DNA from: Cytophagaceae bacterium
Lineage (GTDB): Bacteria > Bacteroidota > Bacteroidia > Cytophagales > Spirosomataceae
Direction: 5' to 3'
Assembly: GCA_947494535.1 (NCBI GenBank)
Contig: CANLVU010000009.1
Span: forward strand, 1 to 38,270
DNA: 38,270 nt
Below are positions 29,172 through 38,163 of this stretch, one piece after another. The notes beneath the pieces were generated by a model that did no database searches, had not been told where the DNA came from, and saw only the letters and a list, made by a program, of their open reading frames with translations. Positions within the stretch are counted from its first letter, which is position 1; each line of letters starts with the position of its first letter. The position numbers and the translations under genes are program-made.

Positions 29172-29852
29172 ATGTATTTCATTGCCATCATTTTCGGAGT
29201 CGCAGGTATGCTTATCTCTTGGCGACTAAAATCCAAATTCAAAACCTATTCTCAAACACCGCTACAAAGTAACCTATCCGGCTACGAAATCGCCGAGCAA
29301 ATGCTGGCCGATCACGGTATTACAGACGTTCGAGTTATCTCGGTGGAAGGCCAATTAACGGACCACTACAATCCCGCAGATAAAACCGTTAATTTAAGTA
29401 ATGATGTATTCCACGGCCGCAACGCTGCTGCCGCTGCCGTTTCTGCCCACGAATGTGGACACGCCGTACAACACGCCAGAGCTTACTCCTATTTACAATT
29501 ACGTAGCGCTCTGGTTCCCATGCTTAGTATTTCGAATGGATTTATGCCCATCCTATTAATGATTGGAATGATGGTTTTGTATTCAACAGGAAGCACCACC
29601 TTATTAGCGATTGGCGTTGCCCTTTTCGCTATGGCCACTCTTTTTAGTTTTGTCACTCTTCCTGTCGAATTCGATGCCTCTAACAGAGCCTTGAATTGGA
29701 TCAAAGAAAAAGGAATCGTAACGCCTACCGAATACGAGATGTCTAAAGATGCGCTTTGGTGGGCTGCGATGACGTATGTTGTTGCCGCGCTGGGTATGTT
29801 AGCGCAGTTGCTTTATTATCTTAATTTGTTGGGTGGAAGAAGTCGAGATTAG
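29172..29852 (+). CDS. Zinc metallopeptidase (YugP-like)
   Basis: ORF 226 aa; VSAHECGHAVQHA HExxH motif, DVFHGRNAAAAAVSAHECGHA, C-terminal TM segments. Confidence 0.9.
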   Translation: MYFIAIIFGVAGMLISWRLKSKFKTYSQTPLQSNLSGYEIAEQMLADHGITDVRVISVEGQLTDHYNPADKTVNLSNDVFHGRNAAAAAVSAHECGHAVQHARAYSYLQLRSALVPMLSISNGFMPILLMIGMMVLYSTGSTTLLAIGVALFAMATLFSFVTLPVEFDASNRALNWIKEKGIVTPTEYEMSKDALWWAAMTYVVAALGMLAQLLYYLNLLGGRSRD

Positions 29853-29857
29853 AGATA

Positions 29858-29970
29858 AGAGAGTATAGAGCAAAGATATGGTAACAAAAAAAGGGAGCGA
29901 ATGCTCCCTTTTTTGTTTAAGTCTGGAGGAAAAGAGTCCGAAGTAAAACCATCTATGCTCTATACTCTCT
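29858..29970. repeat. 15-bp inverted repeat enclosing a terminator hairpin
   Basis: AGAGAGTATAGAGCA (29858-29872) vs TGCTCTATACTCTCT (29956-29970); terminator GGGAGC-GAAT-GCTCCC with A/T tracts (29886-29915) inside. Confidence 0.85.
29886..29915. terminator. Bidirectional Rho-independent terminator
   Basis: A tract-GGGAGC-GAAT-GCTCCC-T tract between convergent genes. Confidence 0.87.
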
Positions 29971-29982
29971 ACTCTATAATCT
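29959..29982 (-). repeat. Dispersed intergenic repeat copy 1 (AGATTATAGAGTAGAGAGTATAGA)
   Basis: 24-nt exact match, on the opposite strand, to 36920-36943. Confidence 0.9.
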
Positions 29983-29987
29983 ATACT

Positions 29988-35432: not shown

Positions 35433-36914
35433 ATGAATAATCAGCTTAAGTCGTATGCGATCATTGCATTAATGTCGAGTGGAGTCACTTTAGGTGCCTA
35501 TTCGCTCTTTAATTTAGGTAATAATACATCCGGATTCTCGGATGCACCGTCCGCCTTTACCACCTCCGTATCCAATCAAATCGTTCCAGGAAACCCAGGT
35601 GAATTCACCTATGCGGCGGAAAAAACAACCCCTGCTGTGGTTCACATCAAGACGAAGATGGAAACACGTCAAAGACAACAACAATTCTCGAGCCCTTTCG
35701 ATGACTTCTTTGGTTTTGGAGATCCATTCGGTGGCGGTGGCCGAAGACAACAGCAACAACCACAAGAGGCGTCTGGTTCTGGAGTAATCATCTCCGCTGA
35801 CGGCTATATTGTGACTAATAACCACGTGGTGGCAGAAGCTTCTGAGGTAACCGTTATTTTAAATGACAAGCGTGAATACAAAGCGAAGGTTATTTCAACG
35901 GATCCATCTTCGGATTTAGCGGTGATTCAAATCAAGGAAACGAATTTGCCTTTCTTAACTTTTGGCGATTCTGATGCGCTTCGCGTGGGCGAATGGGTAT
36001 TAGCCGTGGGGAATCCATTTAATCTAGAGTCAACGGTTACAGCAGGTATCGTTTCTGCCAAAGGTCGTCAAAACATCATCGACCGCGATAGCCCAGACAT
36101 GAATCCACTTGAATCCTTCATCCAAACGGATGCTGCAGTAAATCCAGGCAACTCCGGTGGGGCTTTGGTGAACTTAAAAGGGGAATTAATCGGTATCAAC
36201 ACCGCCATCTATTCTCGTACAGGTCAGTTTGCAGGTTACTCCTTCGCAGTTCCAGTGAGCATCGTGAAGAAAGTATCTGGTGATCTAATTAAATACGGAA
36301 ACGTACAACGTGGCTTCTTAGGCGTTCAGATCTCTGAAGTAAATGCCAAATTAGCAGACGAAAAAGACCTTAAAACTAGCGCCGGTGTCTATGTAGGAGG
36401 CTTCTCTGAAAACTCAGCAGCTAAAGATGCAGGTATCAAAATCAACGACGTAATCACTAAGGTAGACGGAGTAGAGACTAAATCAACTTCGAAGTTAATG
36501 GAAATCGTCAGCAGAAAGCGTCCAGGTGAGCCACTTCAAGTAACAGTTAACCGCGATGGAGCCACAAAGGAATTCAAGGTAACCTTAAAAAACAAAGACG
36601 GCAACACCGAAATCGTGAAAGGCGACAACTCTCCTGAATCAGCGAAATCAGAGTTCTTAGGAGCTAAATTCGCAAGCTTGACTCCAGCTGAAATGAAGAA
36701 ATTCGGAGTAAGTTCAGGTGTAAAGATCGCCGAGGTATTACCAGATGGCCGTCTAGAAATGTATGGCCTAGCGAAAGGTTCTGTCATCACTAAGATCAAC
36801 GACAAAGTGATCAATTCTCCTAAGGAGGCGATTGAGGCTTTGGAATCTAGAAAAGGACGCATCAAGCTAGAGGGTGTGGATGTGGATGGGTCGAGGTTTA
36901 TTTACGTGCTGTAG
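35433..36914 (+). CDS. DegP/HtrA (Do-like) serine endoprotease with two PDZ domains
   Basis: ORF 493 aa; SGVIISADGYIVTNNHVVA, SDLAVIQI, QTDAAVNPGNSGGALVN, PDZ repeats. Confidence 0.95.
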   Translation: MNNQLKSYAIIALMSSGVTLGAYSLFNLGNNTSGFSDAPSAFTTSVSNQIVPGNPGEFTYAAEKTTPAVVHIKTKMETRQRQQQFSSPFDDFFGFGDPFGGGGRRQQQQPQEASGSGVIISADGYIVTNNHVVAEASEVTVILNDKREYKAKVISTDPSSDLAVIQIKETNLPFLTFGDSDALRVGEWVLAVGNPFNLESTVTAGIVSAKGRQNIIDRDSPDMNPLESFIQTDAAVNPGNSGGALVNLKGELIGINTAIYSRTGQFAGYSFAVPVSIVKKVSGDLIKYGNVQRGFLGVQISEVNAKLADEKDLKTSAGVYVGGFSENSAAKDAGIKINDVITKVDGVETKSTSKLMEIVSRKRPGEPLQVTVNRDGATKEFKVTLKNKDGNTEIVKGDNSPESAKSEFLGAKFASLTPAEMKKFGVSSGVKIAEVLPDGRLEMYGLAKGSVITKINDKVINSPKEAIEALESRKGRIKLEGVDVDGSRFIYVL

Positions 36915-36919
36915 AGAGT

Positions 36920-36943
36920 AGATTATAGAGTAGAGAGTATAGA
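36920..36943 (+). repeat. Dispersed intergenic repeat copy 2 (AGATTATAGAGTAGAGAGTATAGA)
   Basis: 24-nt exact match, on the opposite strand, to 29959-29982. Confidence 0.9.
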
Positions 36944-36945
36944 TG

Positions 36946-37056
36946 AAAGCACAAAGAATAAAGCATAGAGGTGGTATCGCCTGCGGCGATTCCTTTGTGA
37001 AGAATTTTTCACGAATTCATCCGCTTCGCGGATGCCTACTTTATTCTTTGTGCTTT
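36946..37056. repeat. Multibranched palindromic intergenic element (outer stem plus three hairpins)
   Basis: Outer arms AAAGCACAAAGAATAAAG (36946-36963)/CTTTATTCTTTGTGCTTT (37039-37056); hairpins ATCGCC-TGC-GGCGAT, TTTGTGAA-gaattt-TTCACGAA, CATCCGC-TTC-GCGGATG. Confidence 0.85.
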
Positions 37057-37086
37057 ATGCTTTAAAAAAGTCGCGACTAAAAAAAT

Positions 37087-37118
37087 GCCAGCGTTTCTCA
37101 CGAAACGCTGGCTTTTTT
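37087..37118. terminator. Rho-independent terminator of pdhB/degP junction
   Basis: GCCAGCGTTTC-TCAC-GAAACGCTGGC with T tract on + and A tract on the other side. Confidence 0.88.
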
Positions 37119-37135: not shown

Positions 37136-38119
37136 TTACTTCTTATAAGTCACTGTTTTAACCGCTTGGATCGTACGCTCGATACTTGGAAGAATTTCTT
37201 CAATCAAGGTAGGCGCGTATGGAAGTGGTAAGTCACGTGAGTTTACACGAACAACTGGAGCATCTAAGTAATCAAATGCCCAACGTTGTAAATGATAAGC
37301 GATCTCAGATGAGATTGCTGATAATGGATTCGCTTCTTCTACTACTACGCAACGATTCGTTTTCTTCACTGATTCTACCACCGTGATATAATCAATTGGA
37401 CGAACGGAGCGTAAGTCGATCACTTCGCAAGAGATTCCTTGCTTCTCTAATTCTTCTACTGCTGGCATAACAACACGAGAAAGCATTTTTCCGAAAGTAA
37501 CAATGGTTACAGCAGAACCTGGTTTCACGATATTGGCTTTTCCAATAGGGATTAAGTATTCTCCTTCTGGAACTAAACCTTTGTCACCATACATTACCTC
37601 AGATTCCATGAAGATCACCGGGTCGTTATCACGAATCGCTGATTTCATTAAACCTTTTGCATCTGCAGGATTGGAAGGAACGACTACTTTTAAGCCTGGA
37701 GTGTTTGCAAACCAGTTCTCGAAGTTAGACGAGTGTTGAGATGACAATTGGCCTGCATTTCCTGTAGGTCCACGGAAAACGATAGGGCACGAATATTGTC
37801 CACCGGACATAGACATCAATTTAGCAGCTGAGTTGATGATTTGGTCAATCGCTACTAAAGAGAAGTTAAAGGTCATAAATTCAACGATGGGACGTAGACC
37901 GTTCGCAGAAGCACCTACGGCAATTCCACCAAAACCTAATTCAGCAATCGGCGTATCAATCACGCGTTCAGGACCGAATTCGTCTAACATTCCTTGGGAA
38001 ACTTTGTAGGCTCCATTATACTCCGCCACTTCTTCACCCATTAAAAAAACAGATGCATCACGGCGCATTTCCTCTGTCATCGCCTCACGTAAGGCTTCTC
38101 TAAACTGAATCTCTCTCAT
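37136..38119 (-). CDS. pdhB: Pyruvate dehydrogenase E1 component beta subunit
   Basis: Start at the internal ATG 38119 (MREIQFREALREAM); GEEVAEYNGAYKVSQGML, DTPIAELGFGGIAVGAS, FRGPTGNAGQLSSQHS. Confidence 0.94.
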   Translation of the reverse strand: MREIQFREALREAMTEEMRRDASVFLMGEEVAEYNGAYKVSQGMLDEFGPERVIDTPIAELGFGGIAVGASANGLRPIVEFMTFNFSLVAIDQIINSAAKLMSMSGGQYSCPIVFRGPTGNAGQLSSQHSSNFENWFANTPGLKVVVPSNPADAKGLMKSAIRDNDPVIFMESEVMYGDKGLVPEGEYLIPIGKANIVKPGSAVTIVTFGKMLSRVVMPAVEELEKQGISCEVIDLRSVRPIDYITVVESVKKTNRCVVVEEANPLSAISSEIAYHLQRWAFDYLDAPVVRVNSRDLPLPYAPTLIEEILPSIERTIQAVKTVTYKK

Positions 38120-38155
38120 AAAAAATGTAAATCTTGTGGGATTAACAAGCGGGTA

Positions 38156-38163
38156 CAAAATTA
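38156..38163 (-). promoter_or_regulatory. TAnnTTTG element upstream of pdhB
   Basis: Minus strand TAATTTTG 36 nt upstream of the ATG at 38119. Confidence 0.45.

Follow-up and report, generated by a model that had tools for sequence, protein, structure and literature searches.

The window, the whole 38,270-nucleotide stretch of DNA that was analysed, comes from a freshwater Aquirufa (Bacteroidota) which, on comparison of the degP protein, is close to A. antheringensis. It carries a degP-like serine protease gene and, convergent with it, a pyruvate dehydrogenase E1 beta-like gene (pdhB); between the two lie a run of heptamers, a palindromic element with a cloverleaf layout and a separate bidirectional terminator (Table 1). 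A sequence-only reading of this DNA had described a perfect 18-bp outer stem around three hairpins, placed between the degP stop and an independent conventional terminator, and each part of that description was confirmed, the two arms being 100% complementary. Folded as RNA, the element gives -53.4 kcal/mol (z -7.9) and none of 200 shuffles was equally stable, so that a chance fold can be rejected. A search of Rfam at a permissive threshold returned no family close to its cut-off.

Table 1. Features of the degP-pdhB region and a related palindrome in the window.
Feature	Position	Strand	Basis and remarks
degP-like serine protease gene, upstream neighbour	35433..36914	+	ORF list; stop TAG 36912-36914
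First heptamer run, TAGAGAG TAGATTA TAGAGTA GAGAGTA TAGA	36912..36943	+	sequence; begins at degP stop codon
Outer stem, left arm, AAAGCAC AAAGAAT AAAG	36946..36963	+	perfect inverted repeat; shared word family
Whole element	36947..37062	.	family covariance model R1; 128.5 bits on +, 103.1 bits on -
Hairpin 1, ATCGCC-TGC-GGCGAT	36976..36990	.	fold; conserved GG just before
Hairpin 2 (hinge), TTTGTGAA ... TTCACGAA	36994..37015	.	fold; stem sides 36994-37001/37008-37015, one G-T pair
Hairpin 3, CATCCGC-TTC-GCGGATG	37018..37034	.	fold; CC follows
Outer stem, right arm, CTTTATTCTTTGTGCTTT	37039..37056	+	perfect inverted repeat
Independent bidirectional intrinsic terminator beyond the element: A run, 11-bp stem, T run	37087..37112	.	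two-strand terminator scan
pdhB, pyruvate dehydrogenase E1 beta-like gene, convergent downstream neighbour	37136..38158	-	ORF list
Related heptamer palindrome between convergent genes, around a terminator-like hairpin	29841..29987	.	inverted repeat; DNA fold z -9.5

The element belongs to a dispersed palindromic family that is specific to one clade. BLAST against its own genome gave 107 matching pieces, which resolve to 40 loci sharing arms, hairpins or heptamer words, and a covariance model recognised 16 loci there. This model (R1) was built from 17 full copies in eight clade genomes, which match it by construction, and since the degP copy was among them the score in Table 1 is to be read in the same way. 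Model copies occur in 10 Aquirufa genomes of the A. antheringensis clade, with 17-88 two-strand matches each; among 28 other Aquirufa genomes the model matched nothing in 27 and gave two weak matches in one, and a search of 394 further genomes of the class gave weak hits in four (E 3e-5 to 3e-4), which were taken as chance. Related copies at 16 loci of a single genome rule out a locus-specific terminator remnant. The few papers returned by a literature search on Aquirufa repeats held nothing relevant.

The family has a constant architecture in which inverted arms built of heptamers close a cloverleaf that holds two ATC...GAT hairpin slots and a GTGAA/TTCAC hinge. The 17 full copies, each made of two inverted units with paired hairpins and inverted arms, align with almost no gaps (four, all at other loci, have an insert at the hinge), and single-half copies exist as well. 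The copies are short and palindromic, similar on both strands and placed between called genes. Both arms of the degP copy are imperfect heptamer runs (AAAGCAC/AAAGAAT/AAAGCAT) of words that are common genome-wide: extended, the left arm reads AAAGCAC AAAGAAT AAAGCAT, and the right arm is the reverse complement of AAAGCAT AAAGCAC AAAGAAT AAAG. Words of the first run, at the degP stop codon, are likewise dispersed elsewhere in the same genome.

Pairing is well conserved across the 17-copy alignment, in which 92% of cells are paired as against 40-48% when the partner is slid, and both partners have changed in nine pairs compared with 4.4 +- 1.1 in shuffles. Hairpin 3 is paired in 100% of cells and has two pairs with compensatory changes, including the clearest covariation of all (CGC/GCG to CCC/GGG); hairpin 1 is paired in 98% of cells, with one doubly changed pair, and hairpin 2 in 88%. 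A switch of heptamer family likewise brings joint changes at some pairs of the outer stem. The perfection of the outer stem nevertheless reflects a shared heptamer vocabulary, not pair-by-pair coevolution. In the AAAGCAC family, an arm pairs no better with its own partner than with arms from other elements (permutation p 0.82), which rejects the perfect stem as a sign of pairwise selection; the 18 bp are perfect because both arms use identical words in identical order. The argument from covariation is carried by the hairpin pairs more than by the long outer stem, and since a DNA palindrome also conserves pairing, it is no proof of a role as RNA.

Genome-wide statistics were computed on 800 kb of a single-contig relative (G007), in which period-7 arrays occupy 35 of 339 intergenic regions and any other period from 4 to 12 at most three. 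The units include AAAGNNN, TAGAGNN and TGGTAAA, and of the 24 arrays lying no more than 45 nt after a stop codon, 22 are rich in purines on the coding strand. As seven is a multiple of three plus one, a unit bearing TAG, TAA or TGA moves a stop codon through the frames, and within 35 nt each of the three frames meets a stop at 71% of these 24 gene ends compared with 15% of others. The three-frame stops may be under selection, or may merely accompany duplication of the stop codon. Similar intergenic repeats are on record: TAACTGA and related heptamers have a period of seven and place stops in all three frames, and some Bacteroidetes have other heptamer assemblages (MacGregor 2015, PMC4679880). 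The Aquirufa arrays share with them the intergenic location, the tandem arrangement and the period. However, the TAACTGA repeats are exact direct repeats which in the Maribeggiatoa genome mostly lie just upstream of start codons (PMC4679880), whereas the Aquirufa heptamers are imperfect, have units other than TAACTGA and are arranged as inverted arms, and the counted arrays come after stop codons, not shortly before starts.

The family sits mainly between convergent genes. This holds for 49 of 69 resolved copies, compared with 128 of 677 neighbouring gene pairs (19%; p 7e-21); for the copies from relatives the figure is 27 of 33, and the set from the window's own genome counts some loci that have heptamer arms and nothing else. 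Roughly 30% of the copies have neighbours in another arrangement. The genes on either side were predicted by a hexamer model that had been trained on G007, and both the gene calling and the terminator scan were simple and home-made. Intrinsic terminators that serve convergent genes consist of an A-run, a GC stem and a T-run and can be read on both strands. Such hairpins lie inside most of the model-found copies, where they occupy one slot and are usually readable on both strands: a strict pattern scan found a hairpin with a T run enclosed in 16 of 28 relatives' copies, 12 of them on both strands, and several further copies have weaker versions by eye. Often, as in ATC-AAAAAAGCGGCAATTGCCGCTTTTTT-GAT, the terminator takes an ATC...GAT slot that would otherwise be filled by a small hairpin. 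What sets the family apart from ordinary bidirectional terminators is that the hairpin is enclosed in a larger repeated cloverleaf, and that the degP copy has no inner terminator at all.

The degP copy, like the homologues nearest to it, belongs to a minority in which each slot holds a small hairpin; at this locus the terminator lies outside, where it is recognisable beside the orthologous elements too. No T run follows the outer stem of the degP element; hairpins 1 and 3 were flagged by the terminator scan on the plus strand only, with interrupted T tails. The earlier view that simple termination does not explain the structure therefore holds for the degP copy but not for the family, most model-found copies of which carry a slot terminator. 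A related palindrome elsewhere in the window (Table 1) has 37-nt arms of TAGAGTA words, 84% complementary, without the small ATC..GAT hairpins, and is conserved in G007.

Orthologues of degP are present in 22 of 23 other Aquirufa genomes searched, and the core of the element lies between degP and pdhB in eight species of the clade, including that of the window (L074, which ends inside this region, was left unscored). Its content there is anything but fixed. The order of the small hairpins is swapped, that is, the core is inverted, in G007, G019, G021 and G027 relative to the window's genome, G030, G013 and G023, which on a three-gene tree, several nodes of which are weakly supported, needs about three changes. 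G013 has two tandem copies, G019 and G027 build both arms of CAAAGTTC words, and in G007 the two arms differ, one being of each heptamer kind; in G008 (L077) the core is missing and a palindrome of unrelated heptamers, TAAACAG/CAGTAGT, takes its place, though the sister of G008, G023 (L080; support 100), retains it. About 5.7 kb from there, G013, G019, G023 and G030 each have another full copy, the orientation of which in G013 is opposite to that in G019 and G023. The palindrome at that site in G007 (L197:1480-1840) is unrelated; it draws on a third vocabulary, of TTAGTC words, which together with mini-hairpins are inverted about a terminator-like hairpin. Among loci of the window's genome whose flanks fall in the examined part of G007, C20:8514 is nearly identical in the two genomes, and the element is absent from G007 at C20:2045 and C19:1371. 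This is a fast-changing repeat family, and such rapid change in presence and content between sister species suits tolerated repeats as well as functional ones.

Collectively, the repeat family, the covarying structure, the location, the slot terminator, the purine-rich message sense and the turnover at the degP locus make it rather likely that the family is a two-way 3'-end cassette between convergent genes, of which the degP copy would be a structural cap or backup. The location bias is consistent with a 3'-end role. RNA polymerase arriving from either gene would transcribe into the element and be stopped by the slot terminator; the large structure that remains at the message's end would block 3'-to-5' exonucleases as well as read-through into the opposing gene. 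The elements would in this way probably cap the ends of both messages. At degP, where small hairpins fill both slots and the terminator is next door, the fold probably acts as a structural 3' cap or backup; this copy, having a separate terminator, could also be a passenger. Spread and turnover of the elements probably involve copying of one by another or recombination among them. Core inversion and arm swapping are observed at the degP locus, and an inversion that took place between the inverted arms would be easy to picture.

The sequence-only reading had proposed a structured RNA, a stabiliser of the mRNA 3' end or a REPIN/MITE-like element. The last of these is supported by copies at 16 loci, covarying homologues in relatives and two inverted hairpin halves, but neither a GTAG tag, nor a Y1 transposase in the carrier genomes, nor a target-site duplication was found. 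MITEs are dispersed non-coding elements with inverted ends, and the Aquirufa element resembles them in all these respects, its inverted heptamer arms forming terminal inverted repeats. However, these ends are repeat arrays with no fixed boundary, and no target-site duplication was found (mean flank direct repeat 2.0 versus 2.3 in shuffled flanks, with an uncertain boundary definition). Of the two transposase families searched for, DDE_Tnp_1 did not turn up in the eight genomes covered, five of them carriers, nor Y1 in any carrier. REPINs are inverted REP doublets with a clover configuration (PMC3116915), and REP elements bear a GTAG tag (PMC3733652). As in the REP/BIME/REPIN group, the Aquirufa repeats are short, multi-copy extragenic palindromes with inverted hairpin doublets and a clover fold (PMC3116915, PMC3733652), often lie downstream of genes and form stem subfamilies with complementary changes; they differ from that group in their heptamer-repeat arms, the frequent terminator in a slot and the restriction to one clade of one genus. 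At the hairpin foot no GTAG-type tag was found, only GG being conserved (alignment columns 27-28) after two variable bases (GT, TT, AT, TA or CT), and the Y1 (RAYT) transposase family PF01797 matched none of the 10 carrier genomes, whereas the same search gave strong matches in the non-carriers G015, G017, G020, G024 and G033. A strict RAYT-driven REPIN is thus not supported, although Y1 may have been lost after the element had spread. A purely selfish element, whose inverted REP-like halves would be spread as single-stranded hairpins by a transposase and tolerated at gene ends, where they do least harm, with any 3'-end effect incidental, seems unlikely: it would account for the doublet and clover fold typical of REPINs (PMC3116915), for dispersed and single-half copies, for the differences in presence between the window's genome and G007 and for the replaced core of G008, but it has to contend with the missing transposase, tag and duplication and with the terminator that most copies, unlike a pure REPIN, carry.

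Formation in place is still less probable. Replication slippage and template switching could duplicate heptamers after a stop codon and copy them to the other strand as inverted arms, with no mobile element and little function, which would fit the strict period of seven, the unrelated heptamer families that form arms at orthologous sites, and the pairing of flanks immediately beyond the arms, which is a little better than in shuffled flanks (4 of 500). The core hairpins covary, however, and the recurrence of arm words and core at 16 loci and across species requires copying between loci. A discrete small RNA, or some other structured RNA acting in trans, is hardly credible as the product of the element, since its strong fold and covariation are set against the lack of any Rfam family near threshold, a scan that found no promoter-like site at the degP element, similarity on both strands, placement at gene ends and loss or replacement in sister species.

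The best reading on present sequence comparisons, then, is a REPIN-like palindromic 3'-end or terminator cassette, a combination that would add to the known kinds of intergenic repeat. A more far-reaching proposal, possible though doubtful, is that the cassette is a self-spreading transposase orphan that carries or acquires a bidirectional terminator in its slot and settles between convergent genes, keeping its architecture through core inversion and wholesale swaps of heptamer vocabulary, with the heptamers supplying three-frame stops. If the cassette reading is right, one clade of Aquirufa makes its convergent gene ends from a few seven-base words and hairpin modules, which differ between sister species through exchange, inversion and replacement although the overall layout stays the same. 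This would offer, with cultured strains such as Aquirufa antheringensis, a tractable system in which to ask whether palindromic repeats are selfish DNA or parts of 3' ends, and one that bears on spread without a REP transposase.

Other arrangements occupy the degP-pdhB interval outside the carrier clade. A. nivalisilvae, A. rosea, A. beregesia and others (L093, L094, L096, L097, L101 and L104) have a nested palindrome, AACGCTG..CAAGGTT..AACCTTG..CAGCGTT, which together with the Y1 transposase of several non-carrier Aquirufa may represent a true REP/RAYT pair in Bacteroidota. In another Aquirufa clade (L082, L086, L088, L098, L100 and L123), TAGTCGC/TAGTCAC arms, which are also dispersed in G012 and G022, wrap a terminator, and in Sandaracinomonas limnophila (L102), from a neighbouring genus, the inverted arms around the terminator are GTGAGCAG / CTGCTCAC, a repeat that does not have a period of seven.
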